Source: Microbacterium foliorum (GTDB taxonomy: Bacteria > Actinomycetota > Actinomycetes > Actinomycetales > Microbacteriaceae). Taken from it: a stretch of DNA of 64,000 bases. Within the stretch, counting starts at the first letter, position 1; each line of letters begins with the position of its first letter. The position numbers were made by a program, and so were the translations under genes. Location: assembly GCF_006385575.1 (NCBI RefSeq), contig NZ_CP041040.1:744001-808000 (forward strand), given 5' to 3'. This document shows, piece after piece, positions 41,921-51,144 of the stretch. Under the pieces are notes generated by a model, which worked only from the letters and a program-made list of their open reading frames with translations, was not told where the DNA came from and did no database searches.

Positions 41921-42544
41921 ATGGGCGAGATCACCTGGCGCGACGTGACCGTCGTGTGGGCGCGGCCCCCCGACCTTCAGGGGTTCACCGAATCCGACGC
42001 CGCCGCGATGGGGCAGGGGCAGATCGACCGCTTCCGCGAGCTGACCGGCAGGCGGGCCCAGGGGTTTCTGGCGGGGAGGGCACTGATCCGCGAACTCGTG
42101 CGCAGATTGCACGGCTCCGACGAGGTTCGGCTCTCCAGCCGCTGCGCGCGATGCGGCGCGGATCACGGCCGGCCGCGCTCCGCCGGCGTCTCGCTCAGCG
42201 TGAGCCATGCCGAGGATCTGGTCGTGGTGGCGGCGACAGCGGGGTCGACCCTGCTGGGCGTCGACGTCGAGCAGGCGACAGCCGATGGCCGCCTCGACGG
42301 GTTGGGGCCGCTGTTCCCCGACGGCAGCGCTCCGGATCTCGCGGCGTGGACGCGCATCGAAGCGGCCGTCAAGGCGGATGGTCGCGGCTTCGAGATCGAG
42401 CCGCCTGAGGTACTCCTGCAGCCGCGCTCCGATGGCGTGGAACCGCGCGTGTGGTCGGCGACGCTCCCCGGGCGCCGGGAGCCCCTCGAGGTCACGACGC
42501 TCATCGGGCCGCCCGGATACGTGCTGAGCGTCGCGGTCGGCTGA
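41921..42544 (+). CDS. 4'-phosphopantetheinyl transferase (Sfp superfamily)
   Basis: The 207-residue enzyme attaches the phosphopantetheine arm of CoA to carrier-protein serines. Key motifs are SLSVSHAEDLV (His96), GVDVE (Asp/Glu at 115-117) and WTRIEAAVKADG (Glu147, Lys151), which form the Mg and CoA site. QGFLAGRALIRELV and SSRCARCGADHGRP are the typical N-terminal motifs, the latter with a Cys pair. The carrier domain nearest to it is in the synthetase encoded 1.3 kb away on the other strand, which it probably activates. No Shine-Dalgarno sequence stronger than GGGAG is seen. Confidence 0.9.
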   Translation: MGEITWRDVTVVWARPPDLQGFTESDAAAMGQGQIDRFRELTGRRAQGFLAGRALIRELVRRLHGSDEVRLSSRCARCGADHGRPRSAGVSLSVSHAEDLVVVAATAGSTLLGVDVEQATADGRLDGLGPLFPDGSAPDLAAWTRIEAAVKADGRGFEIEPPEVLLQPRSDGVEPRVWSATLPGRREPLEVTTLIGPPGYVLSVAVG

Positions 42545-42550
42545 TTCTCT

Positions 42551-42586
42551 GCCGTCAGCGCTGCCGTCAGCGCTGCCGTCAGCGCT
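42551..42586. repeat. Three perfect 12-bp tandem repeats with an in-frame stop in each
   Basis: GCCGTCAGCGCT occurs three times in a row at 42551, 42563 and 42575. On the minus strand each unit reads CAG-CGC-TGA-CGG in the frame of the M1 peptidase gene, so the TGA stop codon at 42581-42579 is duplicated twice downstream. The array lies between the convergent phosphopantetheinyl transferase and M1 peptidase genes. Confidence 0.9.
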
Positions 42587-43886
42587 GGCGCCGGGCAGCG
42601 GGGAGCGCGGGAAGCGGGAGCTCGTCGATCCAGGTCCGCACGAGGGCGCGCGCCTGGCCGCCGGCGACCTCGTCGACCAGCCCGAGGAAGTCGTCGCTCG
42701 TCACCGCGAGCCGAGCGAAGCGCGACGTCCACTCGCGCGTCAGAGCGAAGAACCGCTCGTCGCCGATCGTGAGACGCAGGGCATGCAGGGCGAGGGCGCC
42801 GCGCTTGTACACGCGGTCGTCGAACATGTCGTTCGGGCCGGGATCCGAGAGCACGAGGTCTTGGGGGAGTGTGCGGAGAGCGGCGTGATGCATCAGGGCC
42901 TTCGCGTGGGCGGTGGGCCCTCCCGCGGCCTCGGACCACAGCCACTCCGAGTAGCACGCGTATCCCTCGTTCAGCCAGATGTCCTGCCAGCGGGCGACGC
43001 CGACGCTGTTGCCGAACCACTGGTGTGCGAGCTCGTGCGCGATCAGCCGCTCGCTTCCACCCAGGCCGTCGACGTGGTTGGCACCGAAGATCGCCATGCC
43101 CTGAGCTTCGAGCGGGATCTCGAGCACGTCGGGGGTGACGACGATCTTGTACGACTCGTAGGGGTACGGGCCGAAGGCCTCGACGAACGTCTCCATCATC
43201 TGCGGCAGTGCGGCGAAGTCGGAGCGCACCCTCGGCGCAAGCGCTCGGGGGTGGAACAGCCGCCCCGGCGTCGCGCCGAGCTCGACCCTGTCGTCGTCGT
43301 ACTGACCGAGCTGCACCGTCATCAGATACGTGGCCGTCGGCACCGGCTGGTCGAAGGTCCAGCGAGTGCGGCCCCGCTGCGTAGACCGGGTGGCGGCGCC
43401 GCCGCTCACGACGGTGTATTCGGGGTCGGCGGTGAACTGCAGGCGATACGTCGCCTTGTCGGAGGGGATGTCATTGCACGGGAACCAGGTCGGAGCGCCG
43501 GTCGGCTGCGACGCGACCAGCACGCCGTCCTCGAGCTCTTCCCAGCCGAGGAGTCCCCACCGTGTGCGGCGAGGCGACGGGGCACCCGAGTACTCGACGG
43601 TGACGGTGAGTTCCTGACCGCTCGCTCGCTCGCCGCCGAACGTCACCTTGAGCCGCCGGTCGTCCTGCCGGAACGAGGCGGCTCGGTCGCCGCTCACCCG
43701 CACCTTCGTGGCCTTGAGTCCGACGAGGTCGAAGGACACGTGCTTGGCCGACTCCTGCATCCGCAACCGGATCGTCGCGATGCCCGTGAGGCGGTTCGTC
43801 GTCACGCGGTAGTCGATGGCGAGGTCGTAGTGCAGCACCCCGTAGCGCCGATCACCGCTGTGCGGGGTGTACGGGTCGACGTTCAT
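42579..43886 (-). CDS. Short M1-family zinc metallopeptidase
   Basis: A 435-residue M1 peptidase without signal peptide. The zinc site is H284-E-L-A-H288 with E307 (WLNEGYACYSEWLW), and the catalytic Tyr is likely the one in DRVYKRGALALHALR. The usual aminopeptidase GAMEN motif is not recognisable; the equivalent stretch is PLEAQGMAIFGANH. At 435 residues it has only the N-terminal beta domain and catalytic domain, unlike 850-residue PepN. Its ATG overlaps the stop of the Pls-like synthetase gene (ATGA), so it is translated with it and may trim or degrade the product. Confidence 0.88.
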   Translation of the reverse strand: MNVDPYTPHSGDRRYGVLHYDLAIDYRVTTNRLTGIATIRLRMQESAKHVSFDLVGLKATKVRVSGDRAASFRQDDRRLKVTFGGERASGQELTVTVEYSGAPSPRRTRWGLLGWEELEDGVLVASQPTGAPTWFPCNDIPSDKATYRLQFTADPEYTVVSGGAATRSTQRGRTRWTFDQPVPTATYLMTVQLGQYDDDRVELGATPGRLFHPRALAPRVRSDFAALPQMMETFVEAFGPYPYESYKIVVTPDVLEIPLEAQGMAIFGANHVDGLGGSERLIAHELAHQWFGNSVGVARWQDIWLNEGYACYSEWLWSEAAGGPTAHAKALMHHAALRTLPQDLVLSDPGPNDMFDDRVYKRGALALHALRLTIGDERFFALTREWTSRFARLAVTSDDFLGLVDEVAGGQARALVRTWIDELPLPALPAARRQR

Positions 43887-46800
43887 GCGTCGGAGGCCTG
43901 GTAGGAACGCACCTTGACGGCACGCCACGGGCCGATCGGGTTGCCGCTCCACCTGCTGCCGACGGGCACGAACTCGCCGCGCATCACGAGCGACGCAGGG
44001 CCGACCGTCGCATCCGCTCCGATCGTCGCCGCGGGGAGGATCACGCTGTGCGGCCCGAGGGTCGCACCGTTCTCGAGGGTCACTGCGTCGATGCTCATCA
44101 CTCGATCATGGAACAGATGCGTCTGAACCACACATCCGCGGTTCACCGTGGCGCCGTCGCCGAGCGTCACGAGATCGGGCTCGGGCAGCCAGTAGCTGTC
44201 GGTCCAGACGCCTCGACCGATCTTGGCTCCGAGTGTGCGCAGCCAGATGGCGAGGGCGGGCGTACCGGAAGCCGCGTTCGCGAACCAGAGGGCGGCGACC
44301 ATCTCAGTGAACGTGTCGGACACCTCGGTGCGCCAGACGAAGCTCGACCAGAGCGGATGCTCTCCGGCACGGATCGGCCCGACGATGATCCACTTCGCCG
44401 CTGTCGTGACGAGGGCGGCGATCGCGCCGGCGGCGAGCATGACGGCGCTCGAGAGCACGACCGCCCAGCCGAGCCCCCATGTCTCGACCACCGCGGCGAG
44501 CGTGAGCATCACGGCGAGTCCGATCGCGCAGGTCACGAACACCGGGATGATGCGCCCCAGCTCCCAGAGCGCTCGCGCGACGCGCAGACCGGTGCGGGGG
44601 CGATAGGTGCGCTCGAGGTCGGAGTCGTTGACCACCCGACGCAGTCGCGCGGCGGGCGAGCCCAACCACGACGACCCGGCCTTCGCCTTGGGCGGCGCGA
44701 CAGACAGCACGGCCACGAGGCCGTCGCGGGGCACGTTGTGCCCGCCGGCCGCCATGCCGGAGTTGCCGAGGAACGCGCGCTTGCCGATCCGCGCCGTGCC
44801 CAGTCGCATCCACCCACCCTGCAGTTCGTAGGTGGCGACCATCGTGTCGTCGGCGAGGAATGCGCCGTCCGCGATCGTGGTGAGCTTCGGGATGAGCAGC
44901 ACCGTCGACGCCTCGACATCGCGACCGACGTCGGCACCGAGGGCGCGTAGCCAGAACGGCGTGAAGCTGCTGGAGTACAGGGGGAAGAGGAAGGTGCGCG
45001 CAGAGTCGAGCAGGCGTTCGGTCGTCCACGCCTGCCACGCGACGCGGGAGCGCACCGGGTACACGCCCTCGCCCAGGCCGACCCCGAGCACGCGCACGAG
45101 AAGCAGCACGAGGGCGGCGAACACCACACCCGCGAGCAGCACGGCGGGAACGAGCAGCGCCAGGACGCCGGGGATCGCGGCTGCGAGGGAGTCGGCTCCT
45201 CGGATGTTGAGTGCCACCACCCATGCGCCTGCGGCCAGCGAGACGACGGGCAGCAGGCCGAGGAACGCAGACGATGCGGCGTACGCCCACAGCCAGCGGG
45301 TGCGGCTCGGCGGACGACCGGCCGCGAACGGCTTCGAGACACCGCCGATGCGTGCTGCCGGGGATCCGGCCCAGCGCTGCCCTGAGCGCACGCGCCCGAA
45401 CACGGCGGAACCGGGTGCGATCTCGGCGCCGCGGCCGATCTTCGTGCCGGGAGCGAGGGTGCTGCGTGCGCCGATCGTCGAGTCGGCGCCGATCCGGATG
45501 CCGCCGATGCGCACGGTGTCGCCGTCGATCCAGTACCCGGTGAGGTCGACCTCGGGCTCGATCGAGGCCCCGGCCCCGATGTCGAGCATGCCCGTGATCG
45601 GGGGCACCGTGTGCAGATCGACGTCCTTGTGGATCCGTGCGCCGAGCGCCCTGGCGTAGTAGACGACCCAGGGCGCACCCGCGAGGCCCACCGGGTCGAC
45701 CTGCTGCGCGATCTGCTCGGCGAGCCAGAGACGCAGGTGCACGCCGCCGCCCCGCGGGTAGTCGCCGGGCCGGAGACCGGCGAGCAGAAGGCGGGCAGCG
45801 ACCGCGGCGATGGTCATCTTGCCCAGCGGGGTCACGAAGATCACCAGGCCGACGACGATCGTCCACACCGGAACGGCGGGAAGAAACTCGAATCCGGGGG
45901 TCAGGCGCAGGAGCCAGCTCGCGGTGAGCACGAAGAGCAGCCAGCGGATGCCGGTGAACACGAACAGCGGCAGCCCCGCGATCGTCTGCACCCACTGCAT
46001 CCGCCGCGGTGTCGGTGCCTGCTGGCTGAAGACCCGCTCAGCGGTGTCTTCGTCGTCGGCTTCGTCGTCGACGGCATCGGCCATCTGACGAAGCCTCGGC
46101 AGATCGTAGACGTCGGTCATCGTGAACTCTGGTGCGCGGGTGCGCAGGCGCGAGACCAGCTGCGCGGCAGCGAGTGAGCCGCCACCGAGCTGGAAGAAGT
46201 CGGCGTCCTCATCGCTCGGGCGGACGCCGAGCACGGCGAACCACTGCTCGGCGAGCCAGGCGGCGGTGCCGGAGAGCGACGATTCGCCCTCATCGCCGGA
46301 ATCGAGAGGCCACGGGAGCGCCGCCTTGTCGACCTTGCCGGAGGTGCGGACGGGCAGGTCATCGACGGTCGCGAGCAGCGGAATCAGGGGAGCGGGCAGC
46401 ATCTCGGCGAGCTCGCCGCGCGCCACCTGCCTGTCGAAGCCCTCGTCGGGGACCACATAGCCGACGAGGATCGGCATTCCGGCCTCGGTCTTCTGCACGA
46501 CCACGGTCGCCGCCGAGACGGAGCTCAGTCCCTGCAGCGCCGTCTCGACCTCGCCGAGCTCGATGCGGCGCCCGCCGATCTTGACCTGGTCGTCGGCACG
46601 GCCCTGGAAGATCAGGCCCTCGGGCTCGACGCGCACGACATCGCCGGAACGATAGGCGCGGTCCCAGCCGAGCGTCGGCATCGGCGCGTACTTCTCGGCA
46701 TCCTTGGCGGGGTCGAGATAGCGGGCGAGGCCCACGCCGCCGATGATGAGCTCTCCCGCTTCGCCGTCGGCGACGCGCTGACCTTCTGCATCGACCACGG

Positions 46801-47800
46801 CCAGCGACCAGCCGTCCAGGGGCAGGCCGATGCGCACCGGACCCGTGCCGTCCATGAGCGAGGCACACGCGACGACCGTGGCCTCGGTCGGGCCGTACGT
46901 GTTCCAGACCTCGCGTCCGTCGGATGCCAGCCGCGCGACCAGCTCCGGAGGGCAGGCTTCGCCGCCGAAGATCAGCAGGCGCACGTTCTCGATCGCATCC
47001 TGGGGCCACAGGGCTGCGAGCGTGGGCACCGTCGAGACGACCGTGATGCCGTGCCCGAGCAGCCAGGGACCCAGATCCTCGCCCGACCGGACCAGAGCCC
47101 TCGGCGCCGGAACGAGACACGCGCCGTGGCCCCAGGCGAGCCACATCTCCTCGCACGATGCGTCGAACGCGACCGAGAGGCCCGCGAGCACGCGGTCGCC
47201 GGGGCCCAGCGGAGCATCCTGCAGGAACAGGCGCGCCTCGGCGTCGACGAAGGCGGCCGCGGAGCGATGCGAGACGGCGACGCCCTTGGGCACCCCGGTC
47301 GAACCGGAGGTGAAGATGATCCACGCGTCGTCGTCGACGGTCGGCGGTGCGACGACGGGCACCGCCGAGGTGCTCGGGTGCGGCGTCGCGCTGGAGAACA
47401 GCTCCCTCGCGTCAGAGGTGTCGGCGGGGCGGTAGCCCGCGTCGGTGATCATGCCGACGATGCGTGCCTCGCGGAAGACGAGATCGGCCCGCTCCTGGGG
47501 GTCGTCCGCATCGACCGGGACGTATGCCGCGCCGGCGGCCATCGTGCCGAGGATCGCGATGTAGAGATCACGGCGGCCGGAGGTCATCCTGATGCCGACG
47601 CGATCGCCCTGACTCACGCCCTGCTCTCGCAGAACGGCGGCGGTGCGCCACACCTGCGCCAGCAGCTCCGCGTAGCTCAGCGCGCCGTCGGCGTCTTCGA
47701 CTGCCGATGCATCGGGATGCCGCTCGGTGGTGTCCCGGAGGATGTCGATCAGCGTGCGGGGGAGTGGCGCCTCGGCAGCGCGGTCGAGCGCCTCCTGCAC
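43883..47800 (-). CDS. Pls/PosA-family non-ribosomal peptide synthetase (poly-amino-acid synthetase-like)
   Basis: A 1305-residue protein. Residues 1-500 are an adenylation domain with A3 TSGSTGVPKG, A5 NTYGPTE, A7 YRSGDVV, A8 DDQVKIGGRRIELGEVE and A10 TSGKVDKAAL. A carrier domain follows, with Ser542 in FQLGGGSLAAAQ. From about 620 there are several membrane segments alternating with hexapeptide (left-handed beta helix) repeats such as IGARSTLAPGTKIGRG, the C-terminal plan of epsilon-poly-L-lysine synthetase and PosA, which make isopeptide homopolymers without a condensation or thioesterase domain. The start is GTG 47800, 1 bp after the H1-like gene stop; the open frame to 47875 overlaps that gene. 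There is no Shine-Dalgarno sequence, suggesting reinitiation. Confidence 0.9.
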   Translation of the reverse strand: MQEALDRAAEAPLPRTLIDILRDTTERHPDASAVEDADGALSYAELLAQVWRTAAVLREQGVSQGDRVGIRMTSGRRDLYIAILGTMAAGAAYVPVDADDPQERADLVFREARIVGMITDAGYRPADTSDARELFSSATPHPSTSAVPVVAPPTVDDDAWIIFTSGSTGVPKGVAVSHRSAAAFVDAEARLFLQDAPLGPGDRVLAGLSVAFDASCEEMWLAWGHGACLVPAPRALVRSGEDLGPWLLGHGITVVSTVPTLAALWPQDAIENVRLLIFGGEACPPELVARLASDGREVWNTYGPTEATVVACASLMDGTGPVRIGLPLDGWSLAVVDAEGQRVADGEAGELIIGGVGLARYLDPAKDAEKYAPMPTLGWDRAYRSGDVVRVEPEGLIFQGRADDQVKIGGRRIELGEVETALQGLSSVSAATVVVQKTEAGMPILVGYVVPDEGFDRQVARGELAEMLPAPLIPLLATVDDLPVRTSGKVDKAALPWPLDSGDEGESSLSGTAAWLAEQWFAVLGVRPSDEDADFFQLGGGSLAAAQLVSRLRTRAPEFTMTDVYDLPRLRQMADAVDDEADDEDTAERVFSQQAPTPRRMQWVQTIAGLPLFVFTGIRWLLFVLTASWLLRLTPGFEFLPAVPVWTIVVGLVIFVTPLGKMTIAAVAARLLLAGLRPGDYPRGGGVHLRLWLAEQIAQQVDPVGLAGAPWVVYYARALGARIHKDVDLHTVPPITGMLDIGAGASIEPEVDLTGYWIDGDTVRIGGIRIGADSTIGARSTLAPGTKIGRGAEIAPGSAVFGRVRSGQRWAGSPAARIGGVSKPFAAGRPPSRTRWLWAYAASSAFLGLLPVVSLAAGAWVVALNIRGADSLAAAIPGVLALLVPAVLLAGVVFAALVLLLVRVLGVGLGEGVYPVRSRVAWQAWTTERLLDSARTFLFPLYSSSFTPFWLRALGADVGRDVEASTVLLIPKLTTIADGAFLADDTMVATYELQGGWMRLGTARIGKRAFLGNSGMAAGGHNVPRDGLVAVLSVAPPKAKAGSSWLGSPAARLRRVVNDSDLERTYRPRTGLRVARALWELGRIIPVFVTCAIGLAVMLTLAAVVETWGLGWAVVLSSAVMLAAGAIAALVTTAAKWIIVGPIRAGEHPLWSSFVWRTEVSDTFTEMVAALWFANAASGTPALAIWLRTLGAKIGRGVWTDSYWLPEPDLVTLGDGATVNRGCVVQTHLFHDRVMSIDAVTLENGATLGPHSVILPAATIGADATVGPASLVMRGEFVPVGSRWSGNPIGPWRAVKVRSYQASDA

Positions 47801-47801
47801 G

Positions 47802-48509
47802 TCAGTTCGCAAGGAGGTCGAGCAGTGCGGCCTTCGACAGCCGCGAGTATCCGGTGCGGCCCTCGGCGCGGGCACGGGCCCGGAGCTCGACGACAGTGAG
47901 ATCGCTCAGCTCGGACGCAGAGGCTTCCGCCGGTGCGGTCTTCTTCGGCGTCGCCCTCTTCGTGGTCGTCGCCTTCTTCGCAGCAGGGGCGGCAGGCGTC
48001 GTCGGTGCCTTCGGTGCGACCGCGGGCGCCGCCGGCTCGGTGGTCTTCGCGGCGGGAGACGTGGAACCGTCGGGCGTGGTCGTAGCCTTCTTCGACGCCG
48101 ATGGGGCCTCGGTGGACGGCTTGGTGGCGGACTTCTTCGCGCCCGACTCCTTCGCCTCGGACTTCTTCGCGCCTGGCTTCTTCGCCTCGGACTTCTTCGT
48201 GTCGGACTTCTTGTCGGCCTTCTTCGCCTCGGCCTTCTTGTCGGCCTTGTTCGGAGCCTGCAGACGCGCGGCGGCCTCGTGGAGGCGCTCGGTGGCGGCG
48301 GTGGCCGCCTTCGCGACCTTCTTCGGACGGTCGGCGATCTTCTTCTTCGATGCGCTCGCCGCGTCCTTCGCGTCCTCGACGAGAGGCTTGAGCTTCTTCG
48401 CCGCCTTCTTCGGAAGGGTCTTGATCAGCTTCTTGGCGTCCTTCGCGGCATCCTTGGCGGCATCGAGTGCTGCCTCGGCGTTCCGGTGGGCGGGGGTCTT
48501 CTTGGCCAT
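47802..48509 (-). CDS. Histone H1-like Lys/Ala-rich protein with C-terminal Rho-N/SAP-like domain
   Basis: This 235-residue protein begins MAKKTPAHRNAEAALDAAKD and consists mainly of Lys/Ala-rich repeats (KKADKKSDTKKSEAKKPG and similar) that resemble histone H1 tails or the C-terminus of mycobacterial HupB. The last 35 residues form a folded unit, LSDLTVVELRARARAEGR followed by YSRLSKAALLDLL, as in the N-terminal domain of Rho or SAP domains, which bind nucleic acid. AGGAGG precedes ATG 48509. It is the first gene of the operon with the Pls-like synthetase and the M1 peptidase. A nucleoid-binding role is inferred. Confidence 0.78.
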   Translation of the reverse strand: MAKKTPAHRNAEAALDAAKDAAKDAKKLIKTLPKKAAKKLKPLVEDAKDAASASKKKIADRPKKVAKAATAATERLHEAAARLQAPNKADKKAEAKKADKKSDTKKSEAKKPGAKKSEAKESGAKKSATKPSTEAPSASKKATTTPDGSTSPAAKTTEPAAPAVAPKAPTTPAAPAAKKATTTKRATPKKTAPAEASASELSDLTVVELRARARAEGRTGYSRLSKAALLDLLAN

Positions 48510-48744: not shown

Positions 48745-49560
48745 ATGCGCCGTCGCAACATCATCGCCGGGATCGCGCTCGCCGCGACCGCCACTCTCGC
48801 CCTCGCCGGCTGTGCGACGGGCAGTGGAGACGCAGGCTCGGGCGAGCCCGCGGCCGGTGACGAGTACGGCCTCATCGAGGCGGGCACCCTGACTGTCTGC
48901 TCCGACATCCCCTACGCTCCGTTCGAGTTCGAGGGCGGCGACAACGGCACCGGCTACACCGGCTTCGACATCGACCTGCTCGACGCGATCGCCAAGGAGC
49001 TCGACCTCAAGCTCGCGGTGCAGGACGTCGGATTCGACGCGCTGCAGTCGGGCACGACGCTCGCGGCCGGCCAGTGCGACGTCGGCGCCTCGGCGATGAC
49101 GATCACTGACGAGCGCAAGGCCAACATCGACTTCTCCGAGCCGTACTACGAGTCGCTGCAGTCGCTGCTGGTGCGCACCGACTCGGGCATCGAGTCGATC
49201 GACGACCTCTCCGGCAAGAATGTCGGCGTGCAGCAGGGCACCACCGGCGAGGCGTACGCGACCGAGAACGCCGAGGGCGCCCAGCTCGTGCAGTACCCCT
49301 CCGACGGCGAGCTGTGGCCCGCGATGCAGGCCGGCCAGATCGACGCGATCCTGCAGGACCAGCCGGTGAACCTCGAGCACGAGAAGGCTGACAGCGCCTA
49401 CAAGATCGTCGAGGAGTACGAGACCGGCGAGTCCTACGGCTTCGCCTACGCGAAGGGCGAGAAGGATGCGCTGCGCGAGGCGGTCGACGGTGCGCTGCAG
49501 GATCTCCGCGACAGCGGCGACTACCAGACGATCTACGACACCTACTTCACCGCGAAGTAA
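48745..49560 (+). CDS. Polar amino acid ABC importer, substrate-binding lipoprotein
   Basis: A 271-residue family 3 solute-binding protein with lipobox LALAGC (Cys23). The mature protein shows TLTVCSDIPYAPFEFE, the family signature GFDIDLLDAIAKEL, and DFSEPYYESLQSLLV. Ligand specificity (Arg, Gln, Cys or similar) cannot be told reliably. AGGAG precedes ATG 48745. It is first in an operon with one permease and one ATPase, the standard minimal set for this family. The 235-bp gap before it holds a promoter-like TTTAGATG near 48687 and nothing else visible. Confidence 0.93.
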   Translation: MRRRNIIAGIALAATATLALAGCATGSGDAGSGEPAAGDEYGLIEAGTLTVCSDIPYAPFEFEGGDNGTGYTGFDIDLLDAIAKELDLKLAVQDVGFDALQSGTTLAAGQCDVGASAMTITDERKANIDFSEPYYESLQSLLVRTDSGIESIDDLSGKNVGVQQGTTGEAYATENAEGAQLVQYPSDGELWPAMQAGQIDAILQDQPVNLEHEKADSAYKIVEEYETGESYGFAYAKGEKDALREAVDGALQDLRDSGDYQTIYDTYFTAK

Positions 49561-49594
49561 TCGGCGAGCGACGTAGGACAGGGAGACCTTGACA

Positions 49595-50392
49595 ATGGCG
49601 TTGAGGCGCACCACGAAGAGCAAGCTGTATCGGTACACCGTCTATGCGATCCTGATCGCGGTCGTCGTCTGGCTGATCGTCAGCACCGACTGGGCGAGGA
49701 TCGCGCAGCTCTACTTCAACCCGGAGATCGCCGCCAAGATGCTCCCGGGCATCATCACGACGGCGCTCGTGAACACACTGTGGTTCACGGCGGTCGCGTT
49801 CGCGGGAGGTCTGCTGCTCGGCATCCTGCTGGCGCTCATGAAGCTGTCGAGCATCGGGCCCTTCCGCTGGATCGCGACGGCATGGATCGAGCTGTTCCGC
49901 GGGCTTCCCGCGATCCTCACGATCTTCGCCATCGCCTTCATCCTGCCGATCGGACTCGGCGTGCCTGGGACCAAGCTCGGTGGCCCGGTCGTGCTCGGAC
50001 TGATCGGTCTGATCCTGGTGGCGTCGGCCTACATGGCCGAGACGATCCGCGCGGGTATCCAGGCGGTTCCGAAGGGGCAGACCGAAGCCGCGCGCTCCCT
50101 CGGCATGTCGCCCATGAAGACGACCTTCTGGATCGTCGTGCCGCAGGGCTTCCGCATCATCATCCCGCCGCTGACCAACGAGTTCGTGCTCCTGCTGAAG
50201 GACACCTCGCTGCTCTTCGTCGCGGGATCCTTCATCTGGTCGAAGGAGCTCACGAACTTCGCGCGTGACGCGAGCACGCAGAACGCGAACGGAACGCCGC
50301 TGATCATGGCGGCGGCCCTCTACCTGATCGTGACGATCCCCCTCACGCGCTTCAGCGCGTACCTGGAACGAAGGATGTCGAGGCAGCGATGA
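49595..50392 (+). CDS. Polar amino acid ABC importer, permease
   Basis: The 265-residue HisMQ-type permease has about five membrane helices. [21 protein letters not shown] is the coupling loop (EAA motif), and [15 protein letters not shown] is the typical segment following it. A single permease gene implies a homodimer. The start chosen is ATG 49595, with AGGGAGA upstream; TTG 49589 two codons earlier is less likely. Its stop overlaps the ATPase start in ATGA. Confidence 0.93.
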
Positions 50393-51144
50393 TCACCGAT
50401 CTGATTGACGTCCACGCGCCGGCGATCGACCTGCAGGGGCTCGTGAAGAGCTTCGGCGACAACGAGGTGCTCAAAGGCATCGACCTCACCGTCACGAAGG
50501 GCGAGGTGGTGTGCATCATCGGCCCGTCGGGCTCCGGCAAGTCGACCCTGCTGCGCTCGGTGAACCTGCTCGAAGAGCCCACCGGCGGCAAGGTGCTCAT
50601 CGAGGGCATCGACATCACCGACCCCGATGTCGACATCGACCGGGTGCGCACGCGCATCGGAATGGTGTTCCAGAGCTTCAACCTGTTCCCGCACCTCGAT
50701 GTGATGGGCAACCTCATGATCGCGCAGCAGCGCGTGAAGAAGAGGTCGAAGGCCGAGGCCGAGAGAGTCGCGAAAGAGATGCTCGGTCGCGTCGGACTCT
50801 CCGAGAAGGCAGACGCCTTTCCCGGGCACCTGTCGGGCGGTCAGCAGCAGCGCGTCGCGATCGCGCGTGCGCTGTGCATGAACCCCGACATGATGCTGTT
50901 CGACGAGCCGACCTCGGCGCTCGACCCCGAGCTCGTCGGCGAGGTGCTGCAGGTCATGCGCTCGCTCGCCGATGAGGGGATGACCATGCTGGTCGTCACG
51001 CACGAGATGGGCTTCGCCCGCGAGGTCGGGTCGCGACTGATCTTCATGGACGGCGGATACATCGTCGAAGAGGGCGACCCCCGCGAGGTGCTCGCCAACC
51101 CGCAGCATCCGCGTACGCAGGACTTCCTGGCGCGAGTGCTCTGA
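50389..51144 (+). CDS. Polar amino acid ABC importer, ATP-binding protein
   Basis: A 251-residue ATPase with Walker [11 protein letters not shown]-loop [13 protein letters not shown], signature [15 protein letters not shown], Walker [14 protein letters not shown] and H-loop [12 protein letters not shown]. This is the GlnQ/HisP pattern, including the EMGFAR segment specific to amino acid importers. Coupled to the permease gene. A strong terminator follows 21 bp after the stop codon. Confidence 0.95.

Follow-up and report, generated by a model that had tools for sequence, protein, structure and literature searches.

Which polymer does a synthetase of the Pls/PosA family make in Microbacterium foliorum, and what do the genes packed around it contribute? 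The question is raised by a four-gene locus in a 64,000-nucleotide stretch of this genome (NZ_CP041040.1, positions 744,001 to 808,000; the whole stretch is referred to as the window), the source genome being a single contig of 3.6 Mb. On the minus strand, a gene for a histone H1-like protein is followed by the synthetase gene pls and then by a gene for an M1 metallopeptidase, and a 4'-phosphopantetheinyl transferase (PPTase) gene lies opposite on the plus strand. The original prediction, made from the sequence alone, described these four genes, a 1-bp gap between the H1-like TGA and the pls GTG, an ATGA overlap of pls with the peptidase gene and the facing PPTase gene, all of which were confirmed (Table 1). 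Because many genomes share this arrangement, it is not due to chance. We consider it probable that the locus is an epsilon-poly-L-lysine (epsilon-PL) cassette composed of PPTase, Pls, a PldII-type M1 peptidase and an accessory H1-like gene. Families, substrate pocket, gene order and co-occurrence were read from sequence, and the product and peptidase activity proposed here are taken from papers on relatives.

Substrate pocket and predicted product of the synthetase

The window Pls matched TIGR02353 ('Pls/PosA family NRPS') with 707 bits against a cut-off of 423 and AA-adenyl-dom with 346 bits, and the best Protein Data Bank (PDB) match of its adenylation (A) domain was 7wew, 'Epsilon-poly-L-lysine synthase', with 614 bits. 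These matches bear out the family assignment made in the original prediction. The protein consists of an A domain and a carrier (T) domain followed by six membrane segments and three soluble C-terminal domains, and a standard C or TE domain is absent. Hydropathy analysis placed the six segments in three pairs around the three soluble domains, and the carrier serine was present in 134 of 136 aligned rows, the remaining two being gapped at this position. The same plan, with six membrane segments in pairs and three soluble domains, has been described for Pls (PMC8117764); here and below, statements on published systems refer to parts of the open-licence text of the cited papers, figures and supplements lying outside this scope.

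The ten residues of the A-domain pocket read DAESIGTVVK and, as read off the alignment, are identical to those of 7wew. The positions used for this reading are those of GrsA, and 7wew is the Streptomyces albulus protein, which is also named by reference 13 of PMC10522769. The same ten residues were found in 127 of the 136 aligned rows; two rows carry V for I, two distant ones read DFECLSVVTK and five are incomplete. These two distant rows (L127 and L129) are second synthetases with 29% identity to the window Pls and without an M1 neighbour, in genomes that also carry the Pls cassette.

PosA, the delta-poly-L-ornithine synthetase, is an enzyme of the same type, but differs in its pocket (DMEHNGTVSK) and in being encoded by a single-gene operon (PMC10522769). 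In addition, position 2 of the pocket has been reported to track the chain length of the substrate, with Phe for diaminopropionate, Met for ornithine and Ala for lysine (PMC10522769). The window Pls has Ala at this position and lacks the Met of PosA. Since its pocket carries the 7wew code with Ala at position 2, lysine rather than ornithine is predicted as the substrate, and the product of the synthetase is predicted to be epsilon-PL. Thus, of the two polymers that had been proposed, epsilon-PL was retained, and a PosA-like enzyme making poly-ornithine was rejected because of the differing pocket.

Conservation of the peptidase and the phosphopantetheinyl transferase beside pls

The window M1 protein matched Peptidase_M1 (95 bits) and M1_N (64 bits). 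Its HEXXH-18-E motif and Tyr were invariant in 130 of 130 aligned copies, in an alignment where the N-termini of the relatives were trimmed to the start of the window protein and 15 of the 130 still carried a hydrophobic N-terminal stretch. A PldII-type M1 gene (at least 49% identity) was found beside Pls in all 36 Pls genomes of the genus versus none of the 23 others (p = 7e-17; Fisher p values given in this work ignore relatedness), one of which (G049) holds an M1 relative of 38% identity. Across genus, family, order and class, 131 loci had a Pls with an identity of 50% or higher, and M1 was its neighbour in 130 of them; none of the five more distant synthetases had such a neighbour. The family-level loci comprise all matches other than that of the window itself and G134, which is partial, and the class-level loci are part of the matches listed only (40 plus G404, with G043 and G045).

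The 4-bp overlap of pls and M1 was seen in 32 of 36 genus loci. Moreover, M1 adjoined Pls in 80 of the best 80 named relatives, and in 69 of these a start codon of M1 shares 4 bp with the end of pls, stop codon included; the closest of these relatives, with identities up to 92%, belong to Microbacterium sp., and the named-relative loci share species with the loci of the G genomes and thus are not independent samples. M1 is predicted to be translationally coupled behind pls, and family, position and co-occurrence assign it to a putative PldII type. Housekeeping PepN was rejected as an identity of this protein; the genome has two further, weaker M1 matches (27-30% identity) elsewhere.

The pls–M1 pair is the published pls–pldII operon and is already known. 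In S. albulus, pldII, which encodes the main epsilon-PL degradase, forms an operon with the adjacent pls, the two genes overlapping by 4 bp (PMC4361855), and PldII is an aminopeptidase translationally coupled to pls (PMC9223678). The window shares with it the order of synthetase and peptidase, the 4-bp overlap and, via 7wew, the A-domain pocket. The two differ in the surroundings, as neither a PPTase nor an H1-like gene was found beside pls in seven loci of group f25, which are probably Streptomyces. Corynebacterium variabile likewise combines an epsilon-PL synthetase with a peptidase gene in the same operon; the product of its synthetase was proven in a heterologous host, and Pls homologs are named in Microbacterium in the same paper (PMC8117764). 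The original proposal of a poly-amino-acid synthetase with a co-translated peptidase that could degrade the polymer or protect the producer is supported by family and gene order, and both parts of it have precedents in the literature on S. albulus and C. variabile (PMC4361855, PMC8117764, PMC9223678).

Closer to the window, epsilon-PL clusters have been reported in Microbacterium canaveralium, M. jepli, Agrococcus phoenicis and Leifsonia, with a legend that speaks of a 'conserved gene cluster architecture' (PMC12067966). They resemble the window in family and synthetase, and the text of that paper treats the synthetase. The terms 'histone' and 'phosphopantetheinyl transferase' have no occurrence in the text of PMC12067966, its figure being outside scope, and 'phosphopantetheinyl transferase' and 'histone-like' are absent from the text of PMC8117764, again figures aside. 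In the open-licence literature more widely, within the scope given above, neither a PPTase linkage to pls nor an H1-like companion of pls was found. Both are additions beyond the published operon, and the H1-like gene is one unexplained, patchily conserved extra part.

The window PPTase passed no Pfam cut-off (best E 0.05-0.14), but PF01648 matched 25 of 30 aligned relatives at E ≤ 0.05, with a best value of 6.6e-12. The G-D-E and W-E-K columns of this alignment are invariant, and we take them to be the motifs of the ACPS superfamily. In a single-protein search, 34 of 36 genus Pls genomes had a PPTase no more than 4.2 kb from the pls stop, mostly at 1.3-1.6 kb, and the 23 Pls-less genus genomes gave four weak matches only (E 9e-5 to 1e-3). 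In a profile search with a limit of 4.5 kb, a convergent PPTase gene was recovered in 36 of 38 genus loci, and elsewhere in the family 49 of 58 loci had one; the two genus loci without it are L049, whose genome has one elsewhere, and L132. Outside the family, a PPTase was present in five of eight loci in other families of the order and in five of 27 in other orders. An alternative arrangement of the pair was observed in four more loci of other genera (L108, L110, L116 and L124), where the PPTase gene lies upstream of pls on the same strand.

Furthermore, the M. foliorum genome encodes two PP-binding carriers above cut-off, namely Pls and, in a group of fatty-acid genes, an acyl carrier protein of 82 aa. 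It encodes one Sfp-type PPTase, as a second match (E 0.01) falls where there is no PPTase-like frame; AcpS was not searched for. Pls is therefore the evident client of this PPTase, beside the acyl carrier protein. The PPTase is likely a cassette member that modifies the Pls carrier, as the original prediction had suggested and as family and gene order support, and it would then be the likely activating enzyme to co-supply in heterologous production.

Taken as a pathway, the PPTase would place phosphopantetheine on the Pls carrier and the A domain would activate L-lysine. The membrane-bound domains C1-C3 would link the lysines through the epsilon-amino group, with release of the chain outside, and the coupled PldII-type M1 would cleave polymer that is harmful to the producer.

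The H1-like gene as a putative accessory member

The H1-like protein comprises a basic N-terminal part, a Lys/Ala/Pro linker with short repeats and a C-terminal domain that resembles the Rho_N/SAP/HeH type, which the original prediction did not mention. Both ends are conserved. The N-terminal part is basic throughout (net +7 to +21 in 24 of 24 relatives), and the charge of the linker varies (net -10 to +31), so that it is not always basic. The original prediction had suggested that synthetase and H1-like protein may define a polycation-handling unit; such a unit would have to allow for linkers that carry no net positive charge. Rho_N was matched at E ≤ 1 in 22 of the 24 relatives (best 5.6e-7) and SAP in 21, and in the PDB the C-terminus was weakly similar to a Mu gp35-like protein and to Rho. 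The window copy gave no match to models of the bacterial histone H1-like proteins Hc1/Hc2, either in Pfam (E up to 10) or in NCBIfam (E up to 0.1), in searches where HMMER filters drop most weak matches.

The gene is associated with pls. Full-length relatives (E < 1e-30) occurred in 16 of 59 genus genomes, 15 of the 36 with Pls versus one of the 23 without (p = 0.002), and in 14 of these 15 the gene lies directly upstream of pls. At the level of loci, the cassette included it in 14 of the 34 genus loci that were readable and, among 58 loci from other genera of the family, in 12; L107, L115 and L122 are weak among these 12 (E 7e-6 to 6e-5), and two of the 12 (L087 and L107) have the gene divergent from pls. 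Two genus loci, L050 and L066, were left out of the count since their sequence breaks off at the pls start or short of it; in G046, the genome of L066, a fragment of an H1-like gene lies at the end of another contig. In L089, a 96-aa Lys/Ala-rich frame without the C-terminal domain was not counted as H1-like. In 139 sequences scanned, 27 of 28 H1-like open reading frames (ORFs) adjoin pls, and the six best matches outside the genus in the family search are all pls-linked. The remaining ORF is that of L069, a Pls-less genome that was fetched because it holds a full-length H1-like gene, beside which the flanking genes of the window were not found. Matches to the H1-like query by the C-terminal domain only were seen in 45 of 59 genus genomes (E ≤ 1e-6) and 82 of 150 family genomes (E ≤ 1e-5), and the M. 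foliorum genome itself encodes a second protein that matches by this domain alone.

Among the H1-like loci, 24 showed 15 distinct upstream surroundings and 22 readable ones showed 16 distinct downstream surroundings, with ORFs chosen by third-position GC and compared by a 45% identity rule. The H1-like gene therefore moves with pls, and chance adjacency was rejected on the basis of this co-occurrence and the 15 upstream contexts. On a Pls tree (FastTree only; L067, class-level, short and distant rows excluded), the carriers, 26 of 101 rows, all fall in one clade of 73 rows, and the H1-like state changes 13 times versus 22.9 in shuffles, with none of 500 shuffles as low. This is the pattern expected of an old companion that was lost or gained several times. 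The expectation that H1-like, Pls and M1 genes stay together thus held for several genera of the family, and gene order is not confined to close relatives, the point on which the original prediction could have failed. The association is nevertheless patchy, and an H1-like gene was not seen in any of 35 loci outside the family. It is best described as a putative accessory member of the cassette in part of Microbacteriaceae.

Several observations weigh against the cassette reading or parts of it. In C. variabile, whose Pls is proven, no polymer was found in culture (PMC8117764). A distant synthetase of 39% identity (L143) has the lysine pocket and no M1 neighbour, so the lysine code is not confined to M1-linked enzymes, and L157 is the sole fetched Pls locus of at least 50% identity that lacks M1. 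The window M1 has no hydrophobic N-terminal segment or signal sequence by hydropathy, and PldII is reported to lie on the outer side of the membrane (PMC9223678). Most Pls loci lack the H1-like gene, and therefore the pathway does not need it; moreover, in the family search two Pls-less genomes (G097 and G174) hold partial relatives that score like the weaker pls-linked ones. DNA binding by the H1-like protein is suggested by domain resemblance, which in the window copy is weak (Rho_N/SAP E 0.11-0.14) and below both Pfam cut-offs.

A review (PMC9205021) describes the means by which producers survive epsilon-PL as largely unknown, and the H1-like gene, encoding a conserved extra protein of the cassette, offers a direct gene target for this question. 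Our best guess is that it encodes a basic nucleic-acid-binding protein, made together with Pls, that would cover or organise DNA during polycation production. In epsilon-PL makers of the Microbacteriaceae, such a dedicated histone-like protein may shield the cell's own nucleic acids and add a layer of self-protection beside the degrading peptidase, a proposal that we regard as possible rather than probable.

It is somewhat unlikely that the protein instead binds DNA as a regulator, acting on the cassette or on genes for polymer export and stress. The C-terminal Rho_N/SAP-type domain and the position of the gene, directly before pls in most carrying loci and divergent in L087 and L107, would suit this role, but no known regulator family was matched in the Pfam and NCBIfam searches and a repeat-rich linker is unusual in a specific regulator. 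Contact with the polymer system rather than with chromosome structure, for example as a scaffold at the membrane complex of Pls or as a competitor of polylysine for RNA and DNA, is an unlikely role: it would agree with the tie to Pls across changing surroundings and with the conserved basic N-terminal part, but not with the absence of the gene from most Pls loci, and a known interaction motif was not found. The protein could also be a bystander, kept only for pls translation signals in the 3' end of its gene, which the gap of 1-37 bp or slight overlap in the genus favours. We consider this doubtful, as the protein is conserved at both ends, other genera have a gap of about 26-346 bp and the gene is retained in 15 contexts; furthermore, translational coupling is impossible in L087 and L107 because the gene is divergent from pls there. 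Finally, although one enzyme family makes all of these polymers (PMC10522769, PMC8117764), it is highly improbable that the product is a different cationic homopolymer (poly-ornithine or poly-diaminobutyrate), given that the pocket of the synthetase equals that of Pls and not that of PosA, and that the distant L127 and L129, which read otherwise, lack M1.

Gene boundaries and neighbouring features

Start codons of the four genes in Table 1 were picked by eye. In searches for regulatory sites, no promoter-like site was found, and terminator-like sites numbered 1 versus 1.4 expected.

Table 1. Positions of the cassette genes and their parts in the window
Feature	Position	Strand	Remarks
PPTase (Sfp-type 4'-phosphopantetheinyl transferase)	41921-42544	+	convergent with operon
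M1 metallopeptidase, putative PldII type, 435 aa	42579-43886	-	ATG at 43886; Peptidase_M1 and M1_N matches
pls, predicted epsilon-poly-L-lysine synthetase, A-T-TM/C1-C3 (TM, membrane segments), 1305 aa	43883-47800	-	GTG start at 47800; TIGR02353
H1-like protein, 235 aa	47802-48509	-	ATG at 48509, AGGAGG ahead of ATG
ATGA shared by the pls stop and the M1 start	43883-43886	-	
Pls adenylation domain	46295-47800	-	limits approximate
Pls carrier (T) domain including serine	46070-46258	-	PP-binding 41.6 bits
Pls membrane part, three TM pairs and three soluble domains	43886-45982	-	TIGR02353, hydropathy
H1-like C-terminal domain, putative Rho_N/SAP type	about 47805-47927	-	

A polar amino-acid ABC transporter is encoded at 48745-51144, divergent from the H1-like gene, and its binding protein is nearest to the lysine/arginine/ornithine type, below cut-off. 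The transporter was rejected as a member of the unit: apart from the loci of the two nearest relatives, no locus had its binding protein and permease, and it does not move with pls. At the other end of the locus, a 12-bp repeat of about three copies (42549-42587) lies in the gap before the PPTase gene and runs across the last part of the M1 gene with its stop region.

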